From Fragilaria crotonensis (taxonomy: Eukaryota > Bacillariophyta > Fragilariophyceae > Fragilariales > Fragilariaceae), in assembly GCA_022925895.1 (NCBI GenBank), contig JAKSYS010000574.1, positions 1 through 41,159 of the forward strand: a stretch of 41,159 nucleotides of DNA, in the 5' to 3' direction. The first letter of the stretch is position 1. Each line of letters opens with the position of its first letter. A program made the translations under genes and the position numbers. The notes under the pieces are model-generated. The model saw only the letters and a program-made list of their open reading frames with translations, was not told where the DNA came from and ran no database searches. This document shows positions 2,837 to 38,218 of the stretch, piece by piece.

Positions 2837-3207
2837 GGTCCAATGGGAACCACCATGTCAATGTTATTTTACTCTGAAGCATTTTTTGCATGCATATCTT
2901 AGTCTGATGTTCAGCTAGGGAGTACTTGCAGCACCATCTCTAGTTTAGTTTTCCGGTCATGCATTATTCTTCGTGCATAACATTTCTTCATGGGCAATTA
3001 CCCATTAAGGATTCCTGAAATGTTAAATGGGAAAGGGTAAGCATTTCTCTAAAGTGTTTGTCAAGAATCAAGCTTTATTTTTTATGTGTGTTCTTTTCAC
3101 ATCACCATGCCGAGGTCCAGGAATGGAACAAGACCATTCCTACTTCCTACTGTGCAGTTCATTACTGTACATTCTCTACTGTCGTATTTTTTGGGAAAAT
3201 CTGTCGG
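2837..3207. other. Decayed satellite copy and spacer
   Basis: 2837-2980 is a degenerate seventeenth monomer. Pieces such as the TTTTTGCATGCAT segment and the AGTCTGATGTTCAG segment align with the monomer's central part, after which similarity fades. No convincing gene is present; the short open frame at 3027-3236 has no recognisable features. Confidence 0.6.
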
Positions 3208-7354: not shown

Positions 7355-7910
7355 TCAACATCTTGCTCCACTTCGTGATAAGGTACCATCCAGTACGTAT
7401 CACGAAGTGAAGTAAGATCACTGACAATAAACAACGTCGGCGTTTTGTCGTATCTTTGAATTCGGTTCTCGACGATTCACAACGCATCGCAAGTCGATAT
7501 CTTGCTCCATTCTGTGATAGGGTACCATCCAGTACGTATCACAAGTGAAGTAAGATCTCTGACGACAACGACGTTGGCGTATTGTTGTTCATTTGAATTC
7601 GGTTGTTGACAAAACAGCCTGCGCATCGCAAGTCAATATTTTGCTCCATTTTGTGATAAGGTACCATCCAGTACATATCGCAAAGTGAAGCAAGATCTCT
7701 GACGACAACGACGTTGGCGTATCGTTGTTCATTTGAATTCGGTTGTTGACAATCCACAACGCATTGCAACTCGAACGCATATCTTGTTCCATTTGTGATA
7801 GGGTACCATCCAGTACGTATCACAAATTGAAGTAAGATATCCGTCGATAGCAACGTTGCTGGCATATTGTTGTGACTTTGAATTCAGTTTTAGACAATCC
7901 ACAACATAGC
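7355..7910. repeat. Four tandem ~140-bp hairpin-bearing units inside the Harbinger left arm
   Basis: GGTACCATCCAGTA recurs at 7382, 7521, 7660 and 7802, giving periods of 139, 139 and 142 bp. In each unit it is the loop of an inverted repeat. Unit 1 has 12-bp perfect arms (7369-7380 and 7398-7409); unit 4 has 9-10 bp arms in which a C-G pair is replaced by T-A on both sides. Between hairpins lies a conserved segment with GACGACAACGACGTTGGCG. The array ends just before the transposase gene and could be transposase-binding or promoter sequence. Confidence 0.8.
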
Positions 7911-8001
7911 AACTTCTAGATTGGGTACTACCATCTTGACTTGCAGACCTGATTTTATTCTAGTTGCTCTGCCACCAGCAGCGCTTGCATTGTTTTCCAA
8001 T

Positions 8002-9534
8002 ATGTCAGGTGCATCTGAGAAGGCTACTACAATGATGGTGCTTTTGATGACGGCAGCACTCCTTCCTATTTTGGTTGAGTTCATCCTGAACTATGAGAGG
8101 CAAAGGAAAGAGGAAGAAGTGAAAAGAAGAGCCTTACTTGCAGCTGAGGTTGCCCTCGGAGTAAGACGACAACTTGACGGTCGAGACCATCCACGCGGTG
8201 GCGAGGAGACAGCCCCCAAGCGACGGCGACGTTCACAATTCCGACACCAGCGTGCACAATTGGCTGTCCAAGAAGACTACTTTTCTCCGACTCCAGTGTT
8301 TGATGACAAACAGTACGAACGTATATTCAGGGTAACCAAGCAGATGACCCAAAACATGTTGAACATCTGTGCAATCACGGACCCATTTTTCACTTCGCAA
8401 CAGGATGTCAGTGGAAGGTACAACATAGATCCACTTGTAAAGGTTCTCATGGCACTTAAACTAGTTGCCTACGGTTGCTCTCCAAGTGCATTTCAAGACT
8501 ACTTCCAAATGAGCGAGGCAACAGCAAGAATTTGTCTTCTGAAGTTCTGCCAAATAGTGTCTCGAGATGAATCATTGCGAAGTGTTTTTGCTCGGAAAAT
8601 GACGCGAGCCGATGCAAAACGAATCTCTGCCATGCATGAGGCACAGCATGGAATGGCAGGGATGATCGGAAGTCTAGACTGTACTCACGTTTGTTGGAAA
8701 AACTGTCCCGTTGCCTGGCAAGGATCTCAGACCGGAAAAGAGGGGAAGCCAACGATTGTGCTGGAAGCTTTTGCGGACTTCAACTTGTGGTTCTGGCACC
8801 ACTCATTTGGGTGGCCGGGGTCACTAAACGATATTAACATATGGGATCGAAGCAGCCTTTTGAAGAGTTTTCTTGATGGTTCGTTTGCCGCCGATGTTGA
8901 TTTTGAGTTTGAGGTTGGAGGACGCGTTTTTAATCGGCTGTGGCTCATGGTGGATGGAATCTATCCAGAGCTTTCTAGGTTTGTGAAGACAGTTGAGGAG
9001 CCTTCTGATCGCAAAGCATCGGCGTATGCAAAGTGGCAGGAAGCTGCGAAAAACATTGAGCGTGCATTTGGTGTGTTACAACGAAAGTTTCATGTCCTCG
9101 TACGCAAGATAGAGATGTGGTATGTTGGTGACATTGCATGCGTGGTGAACACATGTATAATGCTGCATAACATGATGGTTTCACATCGAATTGACACTGA
9201 TGAGGTTGAATCGGAGGTTCTCTATGTTTATGACGGGCGTTTGGAAACTGATGAACAAGATATTGCACCAGGAGCAGGTCTCGAACCAGAGCAACAACAT
9301 GTGAACAGAAGAGCGGCAGAGATGGAGTTACATCAGCAGCTATTTGAAATCAACAGACAGGATTGTCATTTGAGTTATCAGCAAAAAGCAATCATTGACT
9401 CGCTTCGATTCCAGTATGTACAGCAAAGGTGGGAGTGTTTATACAATTTGGAAGAACACCATCGATTGAAGAACGCGTGTATGGATCAGCTCCTACTGAT
9501 GATGATGAACAGTAGGACAATCACGGATGTATGA
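8002..9534 (+). CDS. PIF/Harbinger DDE transposase
   Basis: This encodes the cut-and-paste transposase of the element, of the DDE_Tnp_4 (Harbinger) type. The catalytic acidic residues are visible from the ATG at 8002: D226 in GSLDCTHV, D277 in PGSLNDINIWDRS and E353 in KNIERAFGVLQRKF. The usual VDGIYP block sits between the second and third. An upstream helix-turn-helix-like segment (SPSAFQDYFQMSEATARICLLKFC) precedes the core. The frame is open further upstream to 7921 but 8002 is the first ATG. An oddity is a hydrophobic stretch near the N-terminus (MMVLLMTAALLPILVEFIL) followed by a charged region (RQRKEEEVKRR) and a basic RRRR cluster. At about 510 residues the length is somewhat above the family norm. 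The frame is undamaged, so activity is possible, but a partner Myb-like protein would be needed. Confidence 0.92.
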   Translation: MSGASEKATTMMVLLMTAALLPILVEFILNYERQRKEEEVKRRALLAAEVALGVRRQLDGRDHPRGGEETAPKRRRRSQFRHQRAQLAVQEDYFSPTPVFDDKQYERIFRVTKQMTQNMLNICAITDPFFTSQQDVSGRYNIDPLVKVLMALKLVAYGCSPSAFQDYFQMSEATARICLLKFCQIVSRDESLRSVFARKMTRADAKRISAMHEAQHGMAGMIGSLDCTHVCWKNCPVAWQGSQTGKEGKPTIVLEAFADFNLWFWHHSFGWPGSLNDINIWDRSSLLKSFLDGSFAADVDFEFEVGGRVFNRLWLMVDGIYPELSRFVKTVEEPSDRKASAYAKWQEAAKNIERAFGVLQRKFHVLVRKIEMWYVGDIACVVNTCIMLHNMMVSHRIDTDEVESEVLYVYDGRLETDEQDIAPGAGLEPEQQHVNRRAAEMELHQQLFEINRQDCHLSYQQKAIIDSLRFQYVQQRWECLYNLEEHHRLKNACMDQLLLMMMNSRTITDV

Positions 9535-13799: not shown

Positions 13800-14121
13800 A
13801 ATGGTGGAAGCAATTGGGAATCGGAGAATTGTTAGCGCTACAAATACCTTTGTGTCACAGAAGCGTCATTCACAAATATCCCCGGAACAATTAAGCGAGC
13901 GTTGGAACATTGGACTGTCGCAAGCAAGGAAGACCTTGCAAGTAACGACTCAAAGGGTGTGCGATCGGCGATATTACCATTGAGCAGACGGTATCGAACG
14001 GACCGAATATAATCAGCGAAAACTGCGTGGGCAGAAATTTTACACGGACACTTTATTCGGGAAATCCAAATCACTTACTAACAATACTTGCGCGCAGATA
14101 TTCGCTAACGAGTCATATTTT

Positions 14122-15483
14122 GTGAAAGCGTATCCAATGGAAAAGAAGTCCGGTGCAGGACTCGCACTGCGTCAATTCATACGAGACTATGGTGTACCTG
14201 AATTACTCACATCCGATGGAGCAAGCGAACAGACAGGACCAAAAACGGAATTCATGAAACAAGTAAGAAAACATGGAATAATGCATCATACCAGTGAACC
14301 TCATCGTCCGCAGGAAAATCGAGCAGAATCGGTGATTAGAGAAGTGAAGAAGAGGTGGTTTCGACAGATGACTAAGCGACGTGTGCCTGCAAGATTGTGG
14401 GATTACGGTATAGTATGGGTATGCGAGATTATGTCATTGACTGCCAACTCTGTGTTTTCACTCGAAGGGAGAGCACCCATTGAACAGATAACGGGAGAAA
14501 CACCTGACATTTATTTGGGAGCGGAGCTTTGCGAAAAGATTCTCAACGGTGTTGAATGTTGGACGATGTCATCGGAAAAATATGTCAAAGCGGCAGTAGC
14601 GGCCGTCGAGGCTCACCTCGATAAATTAGGTCAACGACTGCCGACGAGATGCACGACGGTGATGAAGGCGGACTATCGACCGGAACTCGATACCACGGCA
14701 GAGCTCAATGCGGCCGGGACTCGTTACTTTCAAGAGCTCGTTGGAATACTAAGATGGGCGATCGAGTTGGGGCGGATTGATATTGCGATGGAAACGTCGA
14801 TGTTGTCTTCTCACCTTGCTTTACCCAGAGACGGTCATTTACAAGCTGTGTATCATATCTTCGGATACCTTAAAGGGAAACCGAAACGTACGCTAGCTTT
14901 TGATCCGAGTCACCCTGATATCGATGAAACCAGATTTAAGGAATGCGATTGGAGGGATTTCTATCGAGACGCAAAAGAATGCATTCCAGGGGACGCACCG
15001 GAGCCTCGCGGTAATTTTATGTCGACGCATTGTTTCGTTGATGCGGATCATGCTGGGAATCGTATCACTCGCCGTTCGCAAACCGGCATACTCATCTTTT
15101 GTAACAGAGCGCCAATACTTTGGTACAGTAAGCGACAAAACACGGTGGAAACCTCAACTTTTGGCAGTGAATTTGTGGCGATGCGCATTGCGGTAGAGCT
15201 TATTGAGGGACTGCGGTATAAGTTGCGTATGTTTGGTATTCCTATTGACAGCCCTACTAACGTTTTTTGCGATAACGAGGCAGTGACGAAGAATGTTACA
15301 TTACCCGAATCAACCCTGAAGAAAAAGCACAATGCGATAGCTTATCACAGATCAAGGGAAGCAGTTGCGGCGGGTACAATCAGAGTGGCGAAAGAAGATG
15401 GGAAAACTAATCTGGCCGATGTGTTAACCAAACCGTTGGCGCAAGTGACAAAGGAATTTTTGTGCGATCGGTTTATGTATTGA
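14122..15483 (+). CDS. copia integrase fused in frame to RT end and RNase H (RT core deleted)
   Basis: The open frame actually starts near 14023, with KFYTDTLF holding the first integrase Asp; 14122 is only the first GTG. The second Asp is in LLTSDGAS (about residue 32 from 14122) and the Glu in ENRAESVIREV. Near residue 130, integrase (TGETPDI) runs directly into the RT C-terminal block (YLGAELCE, then CWTMSSEKYVKAAV). The catalytic RT core with YVDD is therefore missing. RNase H follows intact in style, with FVDADHAGN, TFGSEFVAMRIA, VFCDNEA and DVLTKPL. The protein cannot reverse transcribe by itself. That the fusion is perfectly in frame suggests a single clean deletion. Confidence 0.88.
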   Translation: MKAYPMEKKSGAGLALRQFIRDYGVPELLTSDGASEQTGPKTEFMKQVRKHGIMHHTSEPHRPQENRAESVIREVKKRWFRQMTKRRVPARLWDYGIVWVCEIMSLTANSVFSLEGRAPIEQITGETPDIYLGAELCEKILNGVECWTMSSEKYVKAAVAAVEAHLDKLGQRLPTRCTTVMKADYRPELDTTAELNAAGTRYFQELVGILRWAIELGRIDIAMETSMLSSHLALPRDGHLQAVYHIFGYLKGKPKRTLAFDPSHPDIDETRFKECDWRDFYRDAKECIPGDAPEPRGNFMSTHCFVDADHAGNRITRRSQTGILIFCNRAPILWYSKRQNTVETSTFGSEFVAMRIAVELIEGLRYKLRMFGIPIDSPTNVFCDNEAVTKNVTLPESTLKKKHNAIAYHRSREAVAAGTIRVAKEDGKTNLADVLTKPLAQVTKEFLCDRFMY

Positions 15484-16926: not shown

Positions 16927-19900
16927 TCAGTTCTGACTTGATTTACAATACAAATCCCGACAACTCCATTGGCCTTTCTTTCGAAAGCGACCATCAATGC
17001 ACTTGCACTCAGTCGACGGTTTGTATTCATCCTTGTTGCACATTAAAGTTCCAAAGTAGCAAGTCTTGGCCTTGGAGCCGCATGGCGACCCATTGACTGG
17101 TGCATTCTTGCGTCTCCCACACCGTTGGACATTCTTACCCTTGGAAACAGTGTTCCACCACACGGGCTCGACGTACTTCCATGGGGTGGCGTTTCGACAA
17201 ACTTCGCCAGTCGTAAATGGACATGGAGAAAGCTGCGGACATTGCCAAGTGCCATCCCCGCAGCAGACAGCAGCTCCGAGCCCACACGAAATTTCGGAAT
17301 CTCCATCGCAGCAGCACGTGCGGCCTTGAGGTTGCTTGACCTTTACAGTTCCACACGAGTACAGCCCACTCGAAGGATCAGGGCATTGTGCGGTTCCGTC
17401 TGAGCAACAAGCGTAGTTGCCTGAAGGACAAGGCAGTCTTTCTTGCTCGATGCAACACTTGTTACAAACCTGACCCAAGGGACGACCAAATACAATTATG
17501 CTATTGCAGACGTAGGAACCATCCGATGCTGGGCAAGTCCATGTCCCGCCTTCGCAGCAACCAGCGTTTGGGCACTTTGGTTTCGCCTCCAAGAGACAGC
17601 AGCTGGTTTCTGGTTGCAGGGCCGGAAGCTCAGTCGTCACCTGCGTGTTGGACGGAATCGGAGTTAGAGCCTGGGTTGGCTCCTGAGGGGTCGCCGGATC
17701 AGTAGTTGGAATCAAGGTCGTTGGCTGAAATACTGATGATGAGATCGTGGGCATTAAGGTTGAAGGCTTCATCGTTGGATCGAGAGTGGGCCCATGCAGG
17801 GTCGATGGCACAGGAGTTGGAGCAAGAACAGGACCATTCACGGTCGATGGCATAGGAGTTGGATCGAGAGCAGGACCATTCACGGTCGATGGCACAGGAG
17901 CTGGAGCGAGAGTAGGGACATGCATAGTCGATTGCGCAGGAGTTGGATCGAGAGCAGGACCATTCACGGTCGATGGCACAGGAGTTGGAGCGAGAGTAGG
18001 GACATGCATAGTCGATGGCACAGGAGTTGGATCGAGAGCAGGACCATTCACGGTCGATGGCACAGGAGTTGGAGCGAGAGTAGGGACATGCATAGTCGAT
18101 GGCACAGGAGTTGGAGTTGAGCTAGAACAGGACCATTCACGGTCGATGGCACAGGAGTTGGAGCGAGAGTAGGGACATGCAGGGTCGATGGCACAGGAGT
18201 TGGACCGAGAGCAGGACCATTCACGGTCGATGGCACAGGAGTTGGACCGAGAGTAGGCGCATGCATGATTGACGGCACAGGAGTTGGAGCGAGAGTAGGG
18301 ACATGCATAGTCGATTGCGCAGGAGTTGGATTGAGTGTAGGGACATGCATAGTCGATGGCACAGGAATTGGAGCGAGGGTTGCTGGGTGCGATGGAGGTT
18401 GGATGGTTGTGGGTACCAAAGTTGGCATTGGAATTGGTGCCAGGGTCGTCGGCAGCAATGTCGAAGGTATGGTCGAAGGCATGACCGCAGGCTGGACAGT
18501 CGTCGGCGGCGGCGGTTGAAGAGAAGGTTGCAGCGTGGTCGGTAGAATTGTCGGATGAGGGGTCGTCTGCTCGGGGATTCCCGGAGTTGAAGTTGGAGCG
18601 AAGGTTGGTGGTTGCGATGTTAGTGAAAGGGTAGGCAGCTGCGGATTTGTGGGTATGGGAGTTGGTGACAGAATCGTCGACTCTGGAGATGGCAGTACGA
18701 TGGTTGGCATTAAAGTTGTTGGCAACGCCGTTGGATGTGAAGAATCGGAAGTTGACAATGTCAATTCGCTCCCACTTGAACCGTATCCACCAGGGTCTAA
18801 GGCGGTCCTGATTTGAAAGGAGTACGCCGTGCCTGGTTGCAAACTTGTAACAAAAAAAGATGTACCTTGAACATTGCTCGCAACTAAATTGTACTTTCCT
18901 GATTCCTCCGATGCAAGCTTCTGATAAACAGCGAAGAACGCCAAATGTTCCATCGGGTCCCACGTCAACATCACCGTGGTATCGGCGATGTTCGAGGCTT
19001 GGAGTTTGCTAACCATACCAACAGAGTCGAATCGCAACTCGTACACTCCAGAAGGAGGCCCATAGTCCAGAATATGGAAATATCTTTGAGGCACTTCTCC
19101 AACTCCAATAAGACGCCGCGTTTTCGAAGTGCGCCAGACGTTTTGACCGACAAGCACCTCGCGTTTGTCGCCTTCGCGAAGCACGGATTGTAGCCTGTAG
19201 GACGGTGACAGTATGTCGTCGAAGCGAAAGTAAAACCAATTGCCGTTTGGTGATGCCAAGTCCATGGGAACATACGGCAGTGACATATTCACAACAATTC
19301 GATGTATAAACGATTCACCCACTACCGTCTCCGACTTGATTATCGTACCGCCAACAGTCGCAAACACAGGATACTCGTTTCCCTGATCAGAGCTAATAAG
19401 AGTATCCGGAACCAAATCAATATCGGGTAACTTGTTGATTAAGAAATCAGGGAGGCTGTCGTACGTGCCTCCACCTGATGCAGCAGCCGCTGGATCAATA
19501 GAGACACAATGCGAGAGTTTGAAAATTTGAACGGATTTGATGAGTGCCAGGCGGTCGTCATCAAGGGGTCCCTTGTAGGCGAATGTGGCGTTGAAGTTGG
19601 AAAAAGTCCCTTGCACGGATGACGTCAAAGTCCAAATCCCAACCGCGCTGGACATGGCAGGAATTGTCCCGAAGTTCACATCGAATGAAGGCTCCGAGGG
19701 CTGGCCGGCCAGCTCCGCAGATATGATTTTGAAGTCTATCAACAAACCTTTCTCATTGTCAATGATTTCAGGAACACCCGACAAGATTCTTAGTCCCTGA
19801 GCATCGCCATATCCACTGTTTTTCACCAAGACTGCAAGCTTATACGGCACTGAGGGTTCTACTTCTGGTGTAAACGGATCGTCGCCGAAGATGTCGTACT

Positions 19901-22900
19901 CATGGAAGTAAAGCAGATCCAACCGTGGATCCGGCGAGACCAGAATCGTGTCAGGATACATCACTGAGGTAGTCAGCAGACCATCTTGGTAGTATTCAAA
20001 CTTTCCCCCAATATTAAAGTACGTTGATACCTTAGGGGCGGCATTGCTCAATGCCAAGATCAGCCACGACGCAGACCCCGAAATCGATCCCGCCAGCGTT
20101 CCGTTCCCGTCCACGCCAGTGATGCCAACGAGCGTTGGACTAGATAGGACAAACATGTCATTAGCATACTCTGAAGTGTCACGATTTGTGATGGTAAGAG
20201 TGATTCTTATGTTGGTCATGTCGAGACCAGAATTCTGCACTTGCAGCTCGGCCTCAAACGCATCCCTAGTGAGAACGGCTCGCTGCTTGATTTGGACTCG
20301 TACAGACGCGCAAACACCACTGTCTGCTCTTGAATACGCCTCTTCTAAGGCTCGTTGGTCGTCTAGCCAAAGATCATAAATGTCATCAAATCCTCGGAGG
20401 AAAGCGGCATGTGTCGCTTCCCTCACAATGGCAGCTTTCTCCTCTATGTAGGTCACGTTTATCATATCGGGATCGAGCCCTGACGGTACATCGGAAGGCT
20501 CAAAGTAGCCTCTCGAGTAGTAGTCCAGCGAACGATTCCATTTGGCCACGAACGCTCTGAGCTTTTCGCCGTAGATTAGATCACTCGACGGGCGTATTGT
20601 GGACAAAGATGTTTGCTCGTCGTCCGAAATGAAGGACCCCATGTCTTTACTTGAGTCGATAGAGGACTTGAACACAGCATCAAATAGTTTGAATTCTTCT
20701 TCCGACTCCAACGAGTCGAAGAACGTCGATCCACCAAAGACAAAAAAGGCTAACTCGATGCATACTGCCAATGCCTCGTTGGACCGTACCGAATTCGCTT
20801 GCGCAATAGCAACTTCATTATCGACTTGCAGTAACAATCGGGACGATCCTGACCTGTCTATGCATTCCTCACTGATCCCCTCGTAGCAGTTCTTCAAGTC
20901 GTCAAAATGCTCGATTCCAAAGGCTAAAGCTGTGAGGAGAATAAGAATTGGTCTGAGAAGATTCCTCTGGATTTTATCACTGCCAATCAACTCCGTATTA
21001 GATTGTGATAGGCCCAGTGCAAATTCCGTGCCGGCACCACCAAGTTGTGTTATTGGCTCAGTACGGGGTCTCGCTTCGGCAACCTTTGCAACCTTCTTGG
21101 TAACATCTTTCCCTTTCGACTTAACCTGCTTGGTTTTCACACAACTCTTGAACACATCAAGCAAAGCTTCACCGAGTGCCAGGATGCTTTCGGTATCGTT
21201 TACTTTTACTTCCAGAGCAGCGATAGCTGCATTGCCAATAGCTTTAGGACAATCGTCAATGGGCAACAGTGACCAAATACACTTTGCCACTTCAGCGGCA
21301 CAGCCACATCCTACCTCAACAGGGGGGAGAGGGGGCAATGGGTAAACAGTGATAACGGGCAGACGACGACCTTCATCCGGAAACTCGAATTCGTAAGTAA
21401 ACTTTTCCCAAATCCACTCATCGATTACTATAACAGGAGGACCAGGGCAGCTCCGTTGGTAGGGAATGCGGATTGAGTAGGGCTCAACGTCACGTCAGAC
21501 GATACTCCACAACAAGTCAGCTCCCCCGATGCAAGGATCGGGTTCTCCGTCAAGCCTAGGTCCCCAATTGGCCATCTTTTCGACCTTGACAGGGTAGTAC
21601 ACTGTTGAGTTCGCGGGAAGTCTACCCATCGAGCTATTGAGCAGCGGGACAAACTGGAGACCATTGGTAGCTGGTAAATTGAGAAAAAGATTGTCAGCAG
21701 CAATAAACCCATAATTGGTAATCTTGAAGTTGATTTGTGACTCGCCGGGGATTAAGGCGTCCACGTTGATTTCATTTGGCTCGACCACAATGACAGGTGC
21801 CGGAACGAAGTTTGTGAAATCGCTCTCAATTATAACTTCGTACTCCTCTTCAAGTGAGATCTTGTTGACACTCCAACTGTACGAAACAACTTGCAATGGG
21901 AGGAAGGCATGAATTACCGTATCGACGCCGCTTACTTCAACCAACTTCCTGAATTCCCCATGCTTGTCAGCAGTTGCTCTAATTTCGTACAACCCCCTTG
22001 GCACGTTCGCAAACTTCACTGTACCAGTCGCATTTGCAGCTTGCTGAAATGTCTCCAAGGTCACTGCATTCTTTATGGTCACGCTTGATGTATTAAGGGG
22101 TCGCTTACTCTCCGTATGAAAGGTTGCTTCATCTTCAGTGACGACAATAAGGTTTCCAACAAGGTCGCTGACAACCTCGATTCGAAAGTCGACGTTTAGA
22201 GAAGTAATCGCGGACTGAATGGAAAGGGAACCCATCCACGGCTGAAACGGCTCCGTTGCATTCGGGAGACTGGAAAGGAGAATAGTCACGCCTTGGCCAG
22301 GGACAATTGATGATATGAATGCATTGGACACGAGCTGCAACAAGTGAAAGTCGGGAGGCATAACCACCCGCAAGTCGCCCGTCGGGGCGCCGCCAGCATT
22401 CTTGAGGGTGATCTGAGCATTGGACCTTGCACCACGAGCTGCTTGGAGGACGATACTGGGAGGATTGGCCACCAGCTGGGGAGTGGGATTCCGAAATCGC
22501 ATAGATAACCTTCCAATTGCATATGCTGTCGTATTCGAATAAACTTCATAGTCGAAGTAAAATGTCCCGGGGAGACTTGCGACGACGTAAAGGTAGGCAA
22601 CGATCTCAGAGCCTGGCGATAGCACTGTCGAGTTCAGCTGAATATCGAGGCTCTTGATTTCCGCAGGAATTGGCGATCTTATGGAGACTGATAAATTGCC
22701 TAAAGTCACCTCGTCTGAGAGAGACTTAATCATGATTGATTCCTGAGTTTGCTGGAGTGTCAGTCCAATGACTCGTATGTTGCGCGGATTGAGGGTCATT
22801 CCAACGCGGCTGAAGCTCTGTTGAATCGTGTCATTCAGAAACCCCTTGGGCTGCCCCCCAAGATAAAATGTGCCGCCTTCTTCTTCAGAAACAGCAAATG

Positions 22901-25900
22901 GGACACGAACCATGCCGTCGCGTCCAGCAACGGCGGGTATCACTCGTTTGAATCCGTCTTTCATGACAAAGACCTCGACTTGACAGGAAGGAACTGCGCT
23001 TCGATTTTCTCGGAATCGGCAATATCCTTCGATCGGAATGACAGGCACTGGCGGGCCGCTTGAGATGACTTTGACCTCCGACTTAACCCCATCAATAATG
23101 TATTCAGACAGCACCTCAAGACGAAACGTGGAAGAGTCGCTGCCTGCGCTATTTTCGGCAAATATTGTCACGTCGTAGGCGTTGACGGGCGCCTTGACTG
23201 CTCGCCATTCAAGCAATCCAGAGGATGAATTCATGGATCCACCATCAAGGGGCGGGTTCGCATAAAATGACCAGGAAATCGGTGCATCTCCTTCTTCGAT
23301 TGTTGCCAAGTATGAAACCTTCTTCTTCACTTCGACTTGCAGGTTAGTAGCGGCTCTCACACGTGGTGGGACCACAGCGGTGTCGCACGATTCGCCACGA
23401 AAACCTGAGTCACATACGCACCTAGTGACAGTGCAGTAGCCGTTCACACAGAGGTCCCGTTTACAAACAATAAAGAACTCAAATGGCACGCTATTGAATG
23501 AAACCTGGTCTCCAATCGTAACCGAGAACATTACGACCGCATTGTAGCGTCCAATGACACCTGCGAGGTACGCGTCCGGAGCGACGCATTCCAATTCAGT
23601 GTTTGACTTGTACGTGCCATTCACTTTTATGTCCCCGAAAAGACATGACAGATCATCGGTGCTTGAATTTCCAAAATTGAAGCCATTGACACGAACAACG
23701 AATCCTCCAGTCCCGATTCCACCACTTGGAAACAAGCTGTCGATGGCAACAAGAGGAAGACAATCCTCTGTGAAAGTGCCCGGCGGGCACTTCTTTGGTG
23801 GGGCAACATGGAAAGGCTGGCTGGTTCCGAGGATACGCAGCGGATTGGAATCAGTCACCGCCATGACCACCTGGTAAGTCGTGTCCAAGGCTGGCAAATC
23901 CATGGTAGACACCAGAATGGTTCCCGTATTTCCTGTGGATGTCAACATAACTTGCGTGGCGGAATAAGACGTGTAGTTTTGGACGCCTTGTGGAAAGAGG
24001 CCAACCGAAGCAAAGCCACTCTCCACGTCGACAGTAGCGTTCATGGTGTAGGTAACTTCAACAAATTGCCCCTCAAAGTAAAAGGATTTATCCGTCAACA
24101 AATAAGCAGGATTCGGGACGACATAAATGGAGTCACTCACTCCCAAGATACGCAATGGACTGGTACCTACAACGGCCATCACTGCTCTGTACCCCGAGGA
24201 GATTGATGGAATGCTTCTTGACGGCAAAGAGACAGTTCCTGTATAATCTGAAGACCAGGTTGTACGCTGCGAATATCCTTGGGAAAGAGAGAAGTCATGG
24301 ACGTCGTCAAGCATTAAGGCTATCCATGCAAAGCCATTTTGCAAAGTGTTCGCATCTTGAGATAAGGTATACGTCACCTCAATCATTTCTCCATCATAGT
24401 ACTGAAATTTAGAAGAAGTCAAATTTGCCGAATTGGGGAGAAGATCGAAGGCGTCGCTCACTCCCAAAATACGCAGGGGATCCGAGTCACGGATGGCCAT
24501 CACAGCCTTGTATTTCGAGCTCGAAGCAGGCAAATCTTTGCTCGAAAAGGCGAAGGTTCCAATGCTGCCCGCTGACCAGTACGCAGGTTCAGACAATGCC
24601 TGAGAAAGAGAGAAGTTCTGAACCTCTTGAGGATACAAAGCGATCCAAGCAAAACTGGTCTCCAAGTTGACCACATCGAGACTCAAGGTAAACGACACAT
24701 CAATCAGTTCTCCGTCATAGTACTGGGCTTTTTCTGTGCTCAAAGAAGCCGAATTCTGCAGCACGTTGAAGGCGTCGCCAACTGCCAAGATTTGCAATGG
24801 GTCGGAACCTGATATGGCCATCACGGCTTCATACTTCGAGTTTAACCTCGGCAAGTTCCTGCTGGAGAATGTGATGGTTCCAGTTTTGCCCGTCATCCCG
24901 TATCCTCCGACATACTGAATCGCAACAGGAGGGAGCGAGTAGTCCGAGTTATTGTGAGGGAACAAGGCAACCCAAGCAAAACCACTTTCCATTTTTTCCA
25001 ACTCCTGACTCATGGTGAATGTCACCTCGATCAACTCCCCATCGTAGTATTCTGTGCTGTCAGTTGCCACGGAAGCAGCATTCTGTAGGACATCAAATGC
25101 GTTGCTAACACCCAAGATGCGCGAGGGGTCAGAACTTGTGATAACCATTACAAATTTGTACTTGGCATTTAAAGCCGGCAAGTTCCTGCTGGAGAATGAA
25201 ATAGTGCCAGTCTTGCCCGTCGACCAGTATCCTGTGGATTGCCAAGGAAGAAAGGGGGGCGGAGTAGTCAGACTCATTGAAGGCAAAAAGCCCAATCCTA
25301 GCGTAATTATCGACTGTGATGAATGAATCCTGACTCAAGGTGAAGGTCACATAGATCGATTCTCCGTCGAAGTAACGCGTGTTGTCAGTTGTCAGGGTGG
25401 CAGAATTTTCGAGGACGTCAAAGGAGTCGCTCACTCCCAGGATACGCGGAGGGTCGGAACCTGAGACGACCATCACGGCTTTGTACTTGTAGTTCAACAG
25501 TGGCAAGTCACTGCTCGAGAAGAAAATGGTGCCATTCTCGCTCGTCGTCGACCAGTATCCTACGAATTGAGTAGTCACAAGGGGAGCAGAGTAGTCCGAT
25601 TCGTTGAAGGCAAACAGCCCAATCCAAGCGAATTCAAAGTCTGTGATGACCGAATCCTGGCTCAAAGTGAACGTCACGTCGATCAATTCTTCTTCGTAGT
25701 ATTTTGTTTCGTCAGTTGTCAGGGTGGCAGAAATTTCCAGGACATCAATGGTGTCGCTCACTCCCAGGATGTGCGGAGGGTAGGAATCTGTAATGGCCAT
25801 CACGGCCTTGTACTTTGAGTTCAGTTCTGGCAATTCTTTGCTGTAGAACGAAACCTTTCCACTATTCTCTTCGAAAGTATATTCAACGTTTTGAAGGGCG

Positions 25901-28900
25901 GCAGGAGGGAGAGAGTAGTCTGAGACATTGTGAGCGAACAACCCGACCCAAGCAAAATTGTATTCCAGGTTGTCCGATTCTTCCCGAATCGTGTACGTGA
26001 CATCGATCACTTCTCCATCATAGTATTGCGTGTCGTCTGTTGTCAGCGCAGCAGAATTCGGGCATAACCTCAAAGGAGTCGCTGATCCCCAGGATGCGCA
26101 GAGGGTAGGAGCCTGAGACGGCCATCACGGCTTTGTACTTCGAGTTTAACCGCGGCAGGTTTCTGCTGGATATCAAAATGGTTCCAGTATTACCCGTCAT
26201 CCCATATCCTGCATATTGAAGGTTGAAAGGAGGGATAGAATAGTCTAAGACATTGTGAGCGAACAAACCGACCCAAGCATAGCCACCCTTCCTATTTTCC
26301 CCATCCTGGTTTAAGGTGTAGGTCACATCGATCAATTCACCTTCGTAGTATTTTGTTTCGTCAGTTGTCAGGGTGGCTGAAATTTTCAGGACATCAAAGG
26401 TGTCGCTCACTCCCAGGATGCGCGGAGGGTAGGAATCTGCGATGACCATGACGGCCTTGTACTTTGAGTTCAGTCCTGGCAAGTTTGTGCTGTAGAACAA
26501 AACCGTTCCACTATTCCCTGTCGACCTATATCCAACGTCTTGACGGGCGGCAGGAGGGAGAGAATAGTCTGAGACAGTGTGAGCGAACAACCCGACCCAA
26601 GCAAAATAGACCTCCATGTTGTCTGCATCCTGACTCAAGGTGAAGGTCACAGAGATCGAATTTCCGTCGAAGTAACGCGTGTTGTCAGTTGTCAGGGTGG
26701 CAGAATTTTCGAGGACGTCAAAGGAGTCGCTCATTCCCAGGATACGCGGAGGGTCGGAACCTGAGACGACCATCACGGCTTTGTACTTGTAGTTCAACTG
26801 TGGCAAGTTTCTGCTGGAAAACGAAATGGTGGTACTTTCGCTCGTCGTCGACCAGTATCCTACGAATTGAGTAGTCCCAAGGGGAGCAGAGTAGTCCGAT
26901 TCGTTGAAGGCAAACAGCCCAATCCGAGCGAATTCAAAGTCTGTGATGACCGAATCCTGGCTCAAAGTGAACGTCACATCGATTAATTCTCCTTCGTAGT
27001 ATTTTGTTTCGTCAGTTGTCAGGGTGGCAGAAATTTCCAGGACATCAAAGGAGTCGCTCACTCCCAGGATGTGCGGAGGGTAGGAATCTGTAATGGCCAT
27101 CACGGCCTTGTACTTTGAGTTCACTTCTGGCAAGCTTGTGGTGTATAATGAAATCGTTCCGCTATTGTTCGCAGGCGTATATTCAACGTATTGACGGGCG
27201 GCAGGAGGGAGAGAGTAGTCCGAGACATTGTGAGCGAACAACCCGACCCAAGCAAAATAGTCCTCAATGTTGTCTACATCTTGACTCAAGGTGAAGGTCA
27301 CATCAATCACTTCTCCGTCATAGTATTGCGTGTCGTCAGTTGTCAGCGCAGCAGAATTCGGCAGGATGTCGAAAGAGTCGCTCACTCCCAGGATACGCGG
27401 AGGGTCGGAATCAGTTATGGCCATAACGATTTTGTACTTGGAGTTCAGTTGTGGCAGGTTTCTGCTGGATAACGAAATGGTTCCAATATTACCCGCCATC
27501 GAATATCCTGCATATTGAAGGTTGAAAGGAGGGATAGAATAGTCTAAGACATTGTGAGCGAACAAACCGACCCAAGCAAATTCACAATTCATATATTCCG
27601 CATTCTCGTTTAAGGTGTAGGTCACATCGATCAATTCTCCTTCGTAGTATTTTGTTTCGTCAGTTGTCAGGGCGGCAGAATTGGTCATGATGTCAAAGGA
27701 GTCACTCACTCCCATGATGCGGGGAGGGACCGAGTCTACGATGACCATGACGGCCTTGTACTTTGAGTTCAGTCCTGGCAAGTTTGTGCTGGACAACGTT
27801 ATGGTTCCGGTATTAACCGTCACCCGGTACCGTATGTATCGAAGGGCGACCGGAGGTAGAGAGTAGTCTGTGACATTGTGGGCGAACAATCCAACCCAAA
27901 TGAAATCGGCCTCTATATTGTCGGAATCAGGACTCATGGTGAAAGTGACATCAATCCATTCTCCTTCGTAGTAGTGTGTTTTGGCAGTTGTCAAGGTGGC
28001 GGAATTCGCAATGACATCGAAAGAGGCGGTCACTCCGATAACACGAATTGGGTCTGAGTCACGGATAGCCATGACGGCTTTGTACTTGGAGTTCAAAACT
28101 GGTAGATTTCTGGTAGATAAAGTGATGGTGCCTGTTATGCTCCCAGTCCCGTCGTTTGCATATTGGATGGGACCAAGGGGAAGAGAGTAGTCAGAGACAT
28201 TGTTGGCGAACAAACCAATCCAAGCAAACCTGTCCTCCAGATTGTGCACATCCTCTCTCATGATGAAGGTAACTTCAATCACTACTCCCTCATAGTAGAG
28301 GATTTTGTCAGTTACCAGGACAGCAGAATCCTGCATGACATCAAAGGAATCGCTCACACCCAGGACATGAAGAGGTTCGGAATCTGCAATGGCCATCACA
28401 ACCTTGTACTTCGAGTTGACTGCAGGCAATAACCTCGTCGGGAATGTGACAGTGCTTGTCATTGTTCCATACTCGGTAGACGTGTAGATCGGACGTTTTG
28501 GTTTCGAATAGTTATACACGTCAAGAGGAAACACATCCATCCACGAATAGAAAACACCCTCCTTGACATTGTCCTGCGTCAATTCGTACGTTACTTGGAT
28601 CAACTCTCCATCGTAGTAGCTGGTCTTATCAGTGGTCAAAGCGGCTTGTGGAGCCGCTGCGTCGATAGAAACCTGAGTCTTCCTTGGAGTGAGAGACGTC
28701 GTCGTTGCCTCTAAAAGTCGGGAGGTAAACCCATTGCTGTCTCCTCCTTTCGTTTGAAGCGTTGTCACAAAGTTTGGATCGGAGGGTAGCAACATGTTGG
28801 ATTCCTTGTTAGCCTTGATGTGGTCTCTCTTATGATGGCTGGTGCCATCTTCGTCAGAGTTGGGATGGAGGAATACTCGTTTGCTGTCGGCGGCGGAAGA

Positions 28901-29038
28901 CATGGCTCCGCCTCCTCGGGTGCGACCTTCAGAAGAATGAAAGTCACCATGATTTCCAGAGGAGGCCCTCGAGATTGGAATCCCAAGGCCGAGTAGAGCA
29001 CTTACGAGGAGATGTCCGGCGATGAAACGTCGGACCAT
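16927..29038 (-). CDS. Giant secreted mosaic protein with 15 Ig-like repeats, mucin-like linker and Cys-rich tail
   Basis: The ATG at 29038 opens a signal peptide (hydrophobic LLVSALLGLGI, then ASS), a Ser-rich leader and an R-L-L site at residues 107-109. Fifteen repeats of about 108 residues follow (about 28645-23795). Next come CPPGTF plus an IPT/TIG-like fold (VNGFNFG), an EGF-like segment (CVNGYCTVTRCVCDSGFRGESC region) and a cadherin/He_PIG-like module. Carboxypeptidase-regulatory and CARDB-like sandwiches precede a Cys-bearing region, a fibronectin III domain (about 19020-18755), a Pro/Thr linker and a Cys-rich tail with repeated CC-DGT-CP motifs. There is no C-terminal membrane segment, so secretion to the wall or matrix is likely. 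The frame is interrupted by a probable intron (21428-21505), an extra G at 26060-26062, an extra G at 25254-25259 and a 5-bp insertion near 18115-18124. About 4,000 codons in all. It is either a gene with consensus errors or an early pseudogene. Adhesion or cell-wall function is inference. Confidence 0.8.
17770..18390 (-). repeat. 42-bp minisatellite coding the Pro/Thr mucin-like linker
   Basis: The array has about 15 units of 42 bp (14 residues) in two alternating types, PTPVPSTMHVPTLA and PTPVPSTVNGPALD. It sits in a longer Pro/Thr-rich linker spanning about 18745-17640. Many Thr and Ser residues next to Pro predict O-glycosylation in a secreted protein. A 5-bp insertion near 18115-18124 (GGAGTTGGAGTTGAGCTAG instead of GGAGTTGGAGCAAG) shifts the frame; in the shifted frame the same DNA reads as Ser/Cys-rich SNSCAIDYACPYSR units. 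Confidence 0.85.
21428..21505 (-). other. Probable 78-nt intron containing the only in-frame stop
   Basis: The frames 21495-25295 and the one read through 21338 are the same frame, separated only by a TGA at 21495-21497. A minus-strand GTATCG donor at 21505 and an acceptor with a strong pyrimidine tract (TCCTCCTGTTATAG) ending at 21428 remove 78 nt, a multiple of three, in phase 1. This fits short diatom introns. Read-through or selenocysteine at the TGA are less likely. Confidence 0.55.
23795..28645 (-). repeat. Array of 15 Ig-like/SKICH-like repeats (~324 bp each)
   Basis: Each repeat follows one pattern: TLTTDxTxYYxGExIxVTFTL, then FAWVGLF, SDYS.P, GTI.FSSRNLP, NSKYKAVMAI and PPRILGVSDSFDVL. 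The W-V-G-L-F, L-P, K-Y and V-S-x-S-F-x-V spacing resembles the SKICH beta-sandwich; that is a resemblance, not a proven membership. Repeats 4-7 and 8-11 correspond one to one and are offset by about 1,299 bp, so a four-repeat block was duplicated. Repeats 12-15 are the most diverged. No Cys occurs in most repeats, so folding would not rely on disulfides. Confidence 0.85.
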
Positions 29039-29256
29039 GGCTTAGATTAGATTGACACAACAAGGTTCCTGGTAGTAAAAAAAGATCGGATTATTTTATG
29101 ACCAAGGCAACATTTGTGTATCTTGGCAAGGGCACGATATTGAATTGGATATCAATCCAAACTCAGAATCCACGGTGGTTCGTTACGCGATATACAGTCG
29201 GAGAACAATTATGCGTAGGCTCGTTGTTAAAAATCCTCCTATCTAGGTAGGATACC
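29039..29256. other. Upstream region of the giant gene
   Basis: The minus strand contains CATAAAATAAT about 50-60 bp before the ATG at 29038, a possible TATA element. An AT-rich leader separates it from the start codon. No gene is seen. Confidence 0.35.
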
Positions 29257-29280
29257 ACCCTCCTACCTTGGTAGGAGGGT
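29257..29280. repeat. Near-perfect 24-bp palindrome
   Basis: ACCCTCCTACC at 29257-29267 and GGTAGGAGGGT at 29270-29280 are perfect complements around TT. Related half sites (ATCCTCC before it, GGATGGTAGGATGG after it) surround it, so this is a cluster of TAGGAGG-type motifs. It may be a cruciform, a terminator-like structure or a protein-binding site about 220 bp upstream of the giant gene. Confidence 0.75.
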
Positions 29281-29546
29281 TGTACATAGGATGGTAGGAT
29301 GGGGTCTCGAATATATCGAGCATTTAACATCAAATTCAAGGGAGGCAACGACTTTCATTGTTAAATGTTGGACGATGGTTTGCCGTCCTACCTTTATTTA
29401 GAGATTATCTATTAATCTGATTGGATGATAACAAAATGACGGAAGGATGCGAAACATTATGGGGTTGGCATCCTGTGATTATAAGGGCGATCATCTGTTG
29501 CAGTTCTGACGCTCTGAGGAGCGAATTGAATTCGGGACTAAAAAGA

Positions 29547-32794: not shown

Positions 32795-33973
32795 TCACCA
32801 CCGTTTCCTATGCTGACACTTCCACGGATGATTTTCGAGACGACGCGACGAGATATGTTTTTCCAAAAGACTAGCGATATCAAACTGCTCACACTTGCGA
32901 GCAATATCAAGAACTGTAGAACCAGCTTTATTCTGGCAATTCACATCCACTTTCTCGTGCTTCAACATGTCCTGAACCACATCCAACTGCCCCCTAAGGG
33001 TTGCCCAGACAAGTGCAGTGTTACCGAGTGATCCTTTGGCATTGACGTCTACCGCATGATGTTTGAGTAATACGCGAACAACCTCCCAGTGACCCCAATA
33101 GCTCGCCCAGAGAAATGCTGTGCGGCCTTTTTCATCTTGACAATTCACATCCAAATTTTGGTGCTTCAACAACTCGTGAATCACTTCCAAGTGACCACAG
33201 CAGCTCGCCCTGCTGAGAGCTGTTCCGCCACCATTGCCTTGTACATTCACATCCACATTATCGCGCTTCAATAACTCGCGAACAATGTTTACACTGCCAT
33301 TATCGCACGCCACCATGAGGGCAGTGTCACCGCAGTCATCTTTGGCATTGACATCCACATTTTCGTGCTTCAATAACTCGCGAACCACTTCTGCACTGCC
33401 ATTATCGCACGCCAACATGAGGGCAGTGTCACCGCAGTCATCTTTGGCATTGACATCCACATTTTCGTGCTTCAATAACTCGTCAACCACCTCTACATAG
33501 CCACATGAACACGCCACATTGAGGGCAGTACAGCCGAAGTTATCTTTGACATTGACATCCACATCATCGTGCTTCAACAACTCGCGAACCGCCTCAGCAT
33601 GGCCATTATGGCTCGCCGCGAAGAGGGCTGTTCCATAGTAGTAGTCGTTGGCATTGATATCCACATCATCGTGCTTCAACAACTCGCGAACAGACAACCA
33701 ATGACCGAGTCGGCTTGCCACCGAAAGGGCTGTCTCGTAATAAACGCCAAAATCATCCGCATTCACATCCTTGCCGCCCACAAGAAACGCCATACCGTCA
33801 ATAAATTCATACATGTATTTTGCATTCACATCGGCCCCCTTTTGCAATAGGTCACGAACCGCATCCACGTCATTTTCCTTGACACTCTGGAACAAACTCT
33901 CATTCAGCTCTTGCCAACTCATGCTCCTACCACCATCCCCTGATGACGTTTCTGTTTCGATTATTGATGTCAT
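32795..33973 (-). CDS. Ankyrin-repeat protein
   Basis: A protein-protein interaction scaffold made of about ten ankyrin repeats; partner and pathway are unknown. The frame is open from 34042, but the ATG at 33973 (MTSIIETETSS) is the more natural start. A short N-terminus (WQELNESLFQSVKENDVDAV) leads into a first repeat ending GADVNAK, then a loop containing FLVGGKDVNADD. Regular 34-residue units of the form TALxxAxxxGHxEVVRELLKHxxVDVNAKD follow, with a final weaker unit and a basic tail (RKRW). Two neighbouring repeats carrying DDCGDTALM are almost identical in DNA, a sign of recent duplication or conversion with a 102-bp period. No signal peptide or membrane segment is seen, so it is probably cytoplasmic or nuclear. 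The frame is intact. Confidence 0.9.
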   Translation of the reverse strand: MTSIIETETSSGDGGRSMSWQELNESLFQSVKENDVDAVRDLLQKGADVNAKYMYEFIDGMAFLVGGKDVNADDFGVYYETALSVASRLGHWLSVRELLKHDDVDINANDYYYGTALFAASHNGHAEAVRELLKHDDVDVNVKDNFGCTALNVACSCGYVEVVDELLKHENVDVNAKDDCGDTALMLACDNGSAEVVRELLKHENVDVNAKDDCGDTALMVACDNGSVNIVRELLKRDNVDVNVQGNGGGTALSRASCCGHLEVIHELLKHQNLDVNCQDEKGRTAFLWASYWGHWEVVRVLLKHHAVDVNAKGSLGNTALVWATLRGQLDVVQDMLKHEKVDVNCQNKAGSTVLDIARKCEQFDIASLLEKHISSRRLENHPWKCQHRKRW

Positions 33974-34042
33974 TTTGATGAAGGACAAGATACACTTTCC
34001 GATTTGTGGTGATGATGGCAGCTTGTGCACCACAAAAGTCAA

Positions 34043-34787
34043 CCGGAAATACCAACAGGCTGGTGTGTCGTGTAATAACTATATCAACACGGCAACACAC
34101 ACTCCATGGAAAGAGATTAGTTGGTAATGCTGTATTGTACCATGTTTTACCACGTGACAACGCGAGTCACGCGAAGTCCAGGACGCGACTGAGGAGAACG
34201 AACCCAAGAGGTGACGTCGCCCCACCGATGTTCAAAGAAAGGGTCCGAGCTCCGAGCTGAATTGATTCAGTGTATAGAGCTACTACATGTACGACATATA
34301 GCTGTACATAAATGCTGGCAGCACTTCGAATGGGGACAGACGAGTGGTATCACGGGTGGAAACTGGAAACTGGTTTGTTGCTCTTGGTAGACCTCTACTA
34401 GATCTATATGTCATATAGTCTACTCGAGTACTAGTACCATAACATATATATACATTCCACAGCATCCTACGAGGTAACGTAACATTCAAGTAACATACCA
34501 GTATGCCTGTACTTCCGTCCAACCTCGCGGCAATTCATACGAACTAATACTGGAGTACCAGTGGGTTTCGGTACTGCTACGAGAAGGCAAGAGTGTACTG
34601 TTGTAGTGCACTCCGAGTCACAACCAATGAAAACATCTGACAAAACTGAAAAACATCTGACACAATTTCTCTCACACAAATTGCTCCGTTTGGAACAGTT
34701 GCACACTTTGTCGCGTGTGTGTGAGAGGGAAAGAGAGAGAGTCGACAGTCGACAACAAGGTGTGAAGTCAATAGGCAGGGTGAAAAC
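34043..34787. other. Divergent intergenic region
   Basis: This lies between the ankyrin gene (minus) and the SET gene (plus) and so should contain both promoters. Visible are a TATATATACATTCC stretch near 34445, GTACTAGTAC-type short palindromes near 34400-34440, and a GA-rich tract (about 34727-34742) followed by a GTCGAC repeat just before the SET start. No gene is evident. Confidence 0.4.
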
Positions 34788-36869: not shown

Positions 36870-37704
36870 CTAATTCTTCTTTTTCTTCTTCTTCGCCACA
36901 AAGGTGTACATGATCAATATGAAAGCGAGAGCGAATACTCGGAGTACTTCTACATTCACTGACACATGAGTTCCCTCGATAGATTTTGCATCGTTGTAGT
37001 GCAATTTGTCAGTTGCCAGCCCGGCGGGATTTGGCAGGACTTCAAAGCAGCTGCTTACCCCAAGGATGCGCAGTGGGTTGGAATCAAAGACAGCCATAAC
37101 GGCTTTGTACTTGGAATTCAAAGCTGCCATGTTTCTGCTGGATAAAGTCATGGTTCCAGAATTGCCCGAAGCCCCAAATGTTGCATCATGATGCGGAACC
37201 ATGGAAGCGGTGTAGTCTGAGACATTGCAGGGGAACAAAGCAATCCAAGCAAAATCATCCTCCATATTGTCTGAACTCATCGTGTAGGTCACACGTATCA
37301 TTGCTCCTTCGTAGTATTGTGTTTTATCAGTTGTCAGGACAGCGGAAACCTTGGCTCTCCAGTGAAAAAGACGACTTGGTAGTTGACAGGAATCGTTGAG
37401 TGATAGTAGTATCCTTTTCGTCGTCTCCTTTCGTTTGGAAGATTTTCTCGCGATTGTAAGTAGTTGTGATGGGGTTCTTGTTGTCAAGATGGCGGTCATC
37501 TGAGGCAAAAGATATGCCTCCGCCTCCTCGCCTAAGAGCACGCATGCGCGTCCGACCTGCTGCAGAAGAATGCGAGGCATCGTGATTTTCAGAAGAGGCT
37601 AGTGCCACCGAGAATGGAAGAAAGCAAATAACAAGGACAAGGAGGAGAACTTGTAGAAGTAGCGCATCTACGAGAAGACGGCCGGTGATTGGATTGCGGA
37701 CCAT
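36870..37704 (-). CDS. Membrane-anchored miniature paralogue of the giant Ig-repeat protein
   Basis: The ATG at 37704 starts MVRNPITGRLLV and a long hydrophobic signal segment ending FSVALASS. The leader matches the giant protein: MVR at the start, ASSENHDASHSS against ASSGNHGDFHSS, then GRTR, a Gly run, TKGDD, and an R-F-L site where the giant has R-L-L. One complete Ig-like repeat follows (AVLTTDKTQYYEGAMIRVTY, FAWIALF, NSKYKAVMAV, RILGVSSCFEVL). A second repeat is cut short after TDKLHYND. The C-terminus is a membrane segment (VFALAFILIMYTFVA) with a KKKKKKN cytosolic tail coded by a TTC/AAG microsatellite. The frame changes near 37349-37350, where CAAGG would need to be CAAG. With that one base the leader joins the repeat as SQVSAVLTTDKT, matching TQVSIDA in the giant. 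It probably sits at the plasma or another secretory membrane. Confidence 0.75.
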
Positions 37705-38218
37705 TGTGTTATGCTCCCTCGTATCCTCGAGAGAGGATTTATACCTGCGAGAATGAATGTTGAACCTGTGTACTGTTGTGGAAAATGGTTATGATATGAC
37801 TTATCATAAATGATGGATCTGTTGTGAGATTCTGGATTCTGGAGTTGTGATCTCGGTGTAATCGAGCAGATTCTCTTGGGTGTCAGTTGTATGTATGATA
37901 GAAGCTTCGTACAATGTACCGGTAGGTATACTCGACGAAATCGTCGTATGGTCGTATATGTCATATACATAGAAATAAGTTCAAGTACCACACCTCGTGG
38001 GAACTGCTATTGCAATTCTAAACATTGCGAGCAATGCATGTAAGTATACGCAAGTACAAAAATGCAGTCGGCAACAGTAGCACATGGTGCATGTATGCGA
38101 GGCGAGCACACATCACATTTCACACGGCCACGCGGGAACCCAATCAATTCATTGATTTTTTTTCAACCTTCACAAGAGCAGAAGTGCGTGCCGTGATCCA
38201 TCCAAGTCGTGTTGCATC
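37705..38218. other. Divergent intergenic region
   Basis: This separates the mini paralogue (minus) from the TM9SF gene (plus). Apart from the TATA-like element at 37737-37743 and short ATGTCATATACAT-type repeats near 37950 I see nothing specific. Confidence 0.4.
37737..37743 (-). promoter_or_regulatory. TATA-box-like element of the mini paralogue
   Basis: The minus strand reads TATAAAT about 33-39 bp before the ATG at 37704. Distance and sequence suit a core promoter with a very short 5' leader. Confidence 0.45.

Follow-up and report, generated by a model that had tools for sequence, protein, structure and literature searches.

The window analysed here comprises positions 1 to 41,159 of contig JAKSYS010000574.1 (C530 in our numbering) from the diatom Fragilaria crotonensis (assembly GCA_022925895.1), whose genome runs to 62.1 Mb in 881 contigs. 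Between 29038 and 16927 its minus strand is tiled by five open reading frames of 1007, 331, 1279, 1148 and 693 amino acids (aa); when the region was dinucleotide-shuffled 100 times, the longest frame among the three of that strand had a mean length of 158 aa and a maximum of 254 aa, against the 1279 aa observed. A reading made earlier from the letters alone (the sequence-only reading) had proposed a giant secreted mosaic protein of about 4,000 codons, suited to a diatom. Both the protein, with its signal-peptide-like start, and the host are borne out. The modules it listed, from the signal peptide through 15 repeats, IPT/TIG, EGF and fibronectin type III (Fn3) domains to a Pro/Thr minisatellite and a Cys-rich tail, are also present in that order, with TIG and Fn3 above their Pfam cut-offs and EGF just below (Table 1). 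Compared by sequence with the PDB, the Fn3 part matched Fn3-type chains, and the tail gave a single VNAR row (E 0.053). The Cys-rich frame had no Pfam match at E<=1. Among the Pfam matches of all five frames at that threshold there were neither RHS/YD repeats, the hallmark of Teneurin and RHS proteins, nor a FAS1 domain as in fasciclin adhesins, and the frame holding block B had no NCBIfam match at E<=1. A Tet(V) profile match, whose 55.9 bits fall short of the cut-off of 640, was taken as a repeat artefact. Among the titles listed for diatom SKICH domains, for diatom horizontal gene transfer with Verrucomicrobia and adhesion, and for giant proteins, none described such a protein.

What the sequence-only reading had called several beta-sandwich modules are indeed there, but it missed their kinship: judged by sequence similarity, they form two blocks, A and B, whose homologues stand in the same order in a scaffold of giant bacterial proteins, a relationship that is new here. 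Searched against plasmids by tblastn, the block B and block A frames returned the same four records; for block B, Nostoc gave 34.5% over 573 aa at E 6e-81. A pattern scan of genome contigs gave 327 relatives, and the best 80 of these, chosen by similarity and not as a census, span seven phyla: 52 are from Verrucomicrobiota, 13 from Cyanobacteriota, 11 from Planctomycetota and one each from four others. Frames longer than 3,700 aa were present at 14 of 18 bacterial loci (17 of the 80 and one plasmid), several of them running off the locus. We then ran profiles of the diatom parts, each built from one to two sequences except for the repeat profile, which was built from many, against 83 loci (the 80 and three from plasmids). 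Block B was found in all 83, by construction, and block A in 79. Both lay in the same frame at >=50 bits in 74 loci, with A before B in every one and a median gap of 253 aa (range 99-503); the window has the same colinear order, its TGA codon falling in the linker. The profile of the putative Ig stretch found repeated stretches in two of the 83 loci. Those of TIG-EGF, linker, Fn3, tail and SKICH repeat found none, although many loci are contig pieces and a module may lie outside them.

The flanks of the scaffold differed among the four bacterial proteins scanned with Pfam: CARDB, He_PIG and Rib in a member of the Verrucomicrobiia (L058); RTX and Calx-beta before the blocks and a subtilase after them, in the main frame, in Calothrix (L107); PA14, laminin-G-like and CHB_HEX in L051; and Big, TSP_C and FG-GAP in L096. 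In the last three a CarboxypepD_reg match lies inside block A, as does the weak one in the window. The neighbouring genes had no common member (Pfam, 10 neighbouring frames at nine loci). Block B had no Pfam match in any of 49 rows at E<=0.01, and its profile A4 had no match in the PDB by sequence. A-B can be named and studied as a conserved scaffold of giant bacterial proteins, one of whose blocks is without a Pfam model.

Table 1. Features of the window, with the parts of the giant gene listed from its 5' end
Feature	Position	Strand	Remarks
Whole coding series	16927..29038	-	~4,035 codons; interrupted by three frame changes and a TGA; the ATG at 29038 is the first in frame
Signal-peptide-like N-terminus	28964..29038	-	hydrophobic window, residues 5-23
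15 tandem SKICH-like repeats, ~108 aa each	23802..28651	-	Pfam and fold match
IPT/TIG domain	23475..23744	-	PF01833, E 2.4e-7; 31.1 bits, cut-off 20.9
EGF-like domain	23376..23465	-	EGF_Teneurin PF23106, 23.2 bits, slightly under cut-off 24.3
Putative Ig stretch	23055..23378	-	no Pfam match in the window; presumably He_PIG-like, judged by eye
Block A, ~500 aa	21576..23066	-	bacterial homology; CarboxypepD_reg-like stretch inside (PF13620, 21.6 bits, below cut-off)
In-frame TGA	21495..21497	-	inside the A-B linker
Block B, ~590 aa	19008..20774	-	bacterial homology; no Pfam family
Fibronectin type III domain	18783..19013	-	PF00041, E 3e-6; 27.8 bits, cut-off 25
Pro/Thr mucin-like spacer	17605..18746	-	42/84-bp minisatellite; Pro ~1/4, Thr ~1/5; frame change within
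Cys-rich tail	16930..17604	-	31 Cys in 223 aligned aa; 28 kept in four tails
Satellite	1-2863		177 bp, 16.2 copies, 94% matches; reaches contig end
Transposase frame	7894-9534	+	PF04827 Plant_tran, E 3.4e-55
Frame resembling the end of a copia-type retroelement polyprotein	13984-15483	+	by eye; no Pfam match at 1e-3
Short inverted-repeat-like stretch	29230-29300		CCTACC/GGTAGG motifs, by eye; upstream of the giant gene
Ankyrin-repeat gene	32795-34078	-	102-bp tandem repeats
EMP70 endomembrane protein gene	38619-40682	+	PF02990, E 3.3e-149; single frame

The repeat array that precedes the TIG domain consists of 14 whole repeats and one split across two frames. The Pfam model SKICH (PF17751) reached 39.8 bits against a cut-off of 23.4, but this score is summed over frame 1, in which no single stretch passes. 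An unrelated model, Ten1_2, also exceeded its cut-off on this frame (32.7 against 27); we took it as a repeat artefact, and a score summed over repeats is therefore weak evidence alone. When scanned singly, 15 of 34 repeats matched SKICH at E<=1 (best 4.1e-4), the first repeat scanned without a match. We therefore turned from the score to the fold. The structure predicted for the repeat (predicted local distance difference test, pLDDT, 87.3) was compared with the PDB by VIA-align rescoring of a Foldseek list: SKICH domains filled ranks 1-8, followed by PPD1 (10.3) and TEP1r (9.8), with identities of 13-15% to the SKICH structures. This comparison, rather than the Pfam score, supports a SKICH-like fold in the model of the repeat, as the sequence-only reading had suggested. 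By sequence, frame 1 had no match in the PDB, the repeat profile gave only one weak dextranase row (E 0.11), and repeat and block B profiles were unrelated. The SKICH fold is best known from autophagy receptors, and none of the titles listed on SKICH in diatoms, or on SKICH in tandem and extracellular form, described this protein. To judge from these titles, tandem SKICH arrays that follow a signal peptide would put the fold to a new use.

The window copy belongs to a small family within the genome. Three other contigs carry at least five related cores, two each on C619 and C592 and one on C865, which ends before the expected start of the repeats; every one of the at least 50 matches to a single repeat fell on C530, C619 or C592. 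The copies vary in repeat number and module order. On C619 one frame stays open for 3,992 aa and encodes SKICH repeats, a Pro/Thr stretch, the TIG-to-Fn3 core, another Pro/Thr stretch, a second TIG and block A. The same contig (L019-L022, 12071-31261) holds two near-identical 5.1-kb cores with SKICH arrays on both sides, whose product, if they form one gene, would exceed 6,000 aa. On C592 (L025, ~145,740-145,930, minus strand) an extra Cys-rich module, absent from the window copy, stands between the SKICH repeats and the Pro/Thr spacer. In the window itself, a small gene at 36870-37788 (minus strand, two frames) has a signal-peptide-like start and one SKICH-like repeat, and appears to duplicate part of the 5' end of the giant gene. 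Four further contigs also carry the Cys-rich tail module; three of them were read.

How the scaffold came to be in a diatom was addressed with two trees. A careful tree of block B held 87 rows, 81 bacterial and six diatom, the short bacterial rows L030 and L097 having been dropped; a quick tree of A and B together held three diatom cores out of six and 67 of the 83 bacterial loci, the 16 lacking either block at 350 aa being left out. In both, the diatom rows formed one clade (100/100 in the block B tree). We infer that the scaffold was acquired from bacteria by horizontal transfer, before the family duplicated, although the trees single out no donor; the highest identities were 34.4% to Verrucomicrobiota and 33.7% to a cyanobacterium. 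Several observations weigh against this. The diatom stem is long (1.51 in the block B tree and 1.73 in the A+B tree), and in both trees the diatom copies are neither nested in any bacterial phylum nor joined to a supported bacterial sister; the claim of transfer therefore rests on distribution and module boundaries. The distribution, in turn, is that in genome-contig, plasmid, phage and viral sets and in this genome, and the 3' boundary is unsharp: blastp extended into the Fn3 part in four of the 18 bacterial proteins, an extension that the profile did not confirm. The same long stem, unsettled placement and search scope would be compatible with A-B being an old eukaryotic or stramenopile family shared with bacteria. 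Given that the 80 kept loci span seven bacterial phyla and that four contigs of this genome hold the scaffold, we regard such an old family as unlikely and retain transfer from bacteria as the preferred explanation.

Two other sources were considered and rejected. Strain SAG 28.96 is reported to have been sequenced from a non-axenic culture, but bacterial contamination does not account for a contig that carries EMP70, plant-type transposase and ankyrin genes, or for a family present on four contigs. A virus or phage is no better supported as the source: in viral contigs, pattern scans found no relatives of the frame at 18051-21494, of A2, of A3 or of the tail, and tblastn of two window frames gave no match in phages.

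The sequence-only reading had described one continuous series. The repeats and the homology are indeed unbroken, but in this assembly the frame is interrupted at four points, by changes near 26,060, 25,250 and 18,120 and by the TGA, and these interruptions count against a working gene. Introns at the breaks were rejected because repeats and homology run straight through them, leaving no room. Selenocysteine at the TGA is unlikely: the position is Cys in two related copies, on C619 and C592 (read by eye), but no Rfam family reached its gathering score in the window. The interruptions could be true mutations, so that the window copy would be a pseudogene of recent origin in a family that is still live, and it is consistent with this that other copies are broken as well and that polishing ought to succeed in the unique sequence that holds the TGA. 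Against this, all three frame changes lie inside tandem arrays, which cover 3,842 of the 12,112 bases of the coding series, and one adjoins a run of six C. Outside the arrays, the TIG-Fn3 part aligns with C619 over 1,716 columns in a single frame, with one stop and 61.7% identity. Moreover, block B of the window copy, at a synonymous divergence (dS) of 0.82-1.06 from four other copies, has a ratio of nonsynonymous to synonymous divergence (dN/dS) of 0.126-0.152, as low as in its relatives (0.120-0.323 over all ten copy pairs). By this sequence measure, the window copy is strongly constrained in block B.

The state of the assembly offers a further clue. The nuclear assembly of SAG 28.96 is reported as Nanopore data assembled with Canu and polished with Pilon, at 61.85 Mb in 879 contigs with organelles removed. 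The two cores on C619 are 98.84% identical over 5,091 columns. They differ by 43 mismatches, of which 28 fall on third codon positions, and by 10 gaps; every gap is a loss in the same copy, and nine break the frame. Such differences are what failed short-read polishing might leave in near-identical stretches, and they fit this better than decay. This pattern does not explain the TGA, which lies in unique sequence. Within this one assembly, the frame changes of the window copy suggest faulty assembly more than decay, and we consider a pseudogene rather improbable.

Silicon transporters (SITs) are abundant elsewhere in this genome, and include a triple-match frame on C97 (1456 aa) and a double-match frame on C771 (1008 aa); fused multi-SITs have been reported for Synedra (PMC6114903). 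Transcriptomic data for F. crotonensis are mentioned in PMC9476933.

Taken together, the results suggest a model, which we put forward tentatively and with slightly more doubt than belief, whereby A-B serves in bacteria of several phyla as a constant chassis on which giant surface proteins are built, with interchangeable adhesion modules at their ends; a diatom lineage would have captured this chassis, added tandem SKICH repeats together with mucin and Cys-rich modules of its own, and multiplied the product to yield a family of adhesins or coat proteins outside the cell. For the window gene itself we lean, somewhat more firmly, towards a giant secreted protein of a small diatom family, combining the bacterial-derived A-B chassis with other modules and serving to link cells or to form an adhesive coat. 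By analogy, adhesion or coat formation is the most likely role. The protein would be secreted without a membrane anchor, a hydrophobic stretch having been looked for at its C-terminus and none seen. The Cys-rich tail would probably fix it in the wall or coat through disulfides, the Pro/Thr stretch would probably be a spacer bearing O-linked glycans, and the SKICH array might act as a rod-like extender projecting binding surfaces, as Ig-repeat extenders such as that of MpAFP do, with A-B as the constant hub. Three transmembrane-like windows in the block B frame, the best at residue 241, where block B starts, argue against this arrangement.

The closest rival is a structural or silica-associated cell-wall protein of the girdle band or valve coat. 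The lack of a hydrophobic C-terminus would suit it equally, as would a 1,192-aa frame on C243 (L119, 18239-21814) that has a signal-peptide-like start and consists almost entirely of tandem CC-type Cys modules like those of the tail. By analogy, an Ig-type rod, a mucin-like spacer and a scaffold of bacterial extracellular proteins would suit adhesion better, and a wall protein seems to us the less probable of the two, if not by so much as to be dismissed. A protein of mating or species recognition, its specificity given by repeat number, would fit the differences between copies in repeat number and module order, but such variation is equally expected for any tandem-repeat coat protein; no mating-related evidence was found, none having been sought beyond literature titles, and this role appears very unlikely. 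Gliding mucilage, named in the sequence-only reading, does not fit. F. crotonensis belongs to the Fragilariophyceae and is araphid; araphid diatoms are not known to glide, and gliding is therefore not expected.

Few giant adhesion or coat proteins of diatoms have, to our knowledge, been described, above all in araphid plankton, and the adhesive coat or linker proposed here would add a defined candidate family with a testable origin. Its nearest known counterparts are the bacterial A-B giants, such as those of Calothrix (L107), the Verrucomicrobiia (L058) and a Nostoc plasmid (FD725_RS32905), which share the order and similar spacing of the blocks; the flanks of the four scanned are not of the SKICH, TIG, EGF or Cys-tail kind. 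Autophagy receptors of the NDP52 and TAX1BP1 type are intracellular and carry SKICH in single copy, whereas the window protein has 15 tandem copies behind a signal-peptide-like start. The primary paper on the trail proteins of Craspedostauros australis (doi 10.1111/nph.19145) reportedly states acquisition from bacteria in its title. Two proteins in the adhesive trails of this raphid diatom, CaTrailin4 (~900 kDa) and Ca5609 (>1 MDa), are described as giant and modular (PMC11420354); the likeness to the window protein is one of description, and their host glides, whereas the window protein comes from an apparently non-gliding lineage. Diatom fasciclins are likewise secreted adhesion proteins for which bacterial acquisition has been proposed (PMC10939406), but they differ in their FAS1 domain. 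Finally, the bacterial ice adhesin MpAFP, of 1.5 MDa, extends as a rod through ~120 Ig-like repeats of 104 aa bridged by Ca2+ (PMC4083281), and the likeness here lies in the working principle of tandem Ig-type repeats as an extender.
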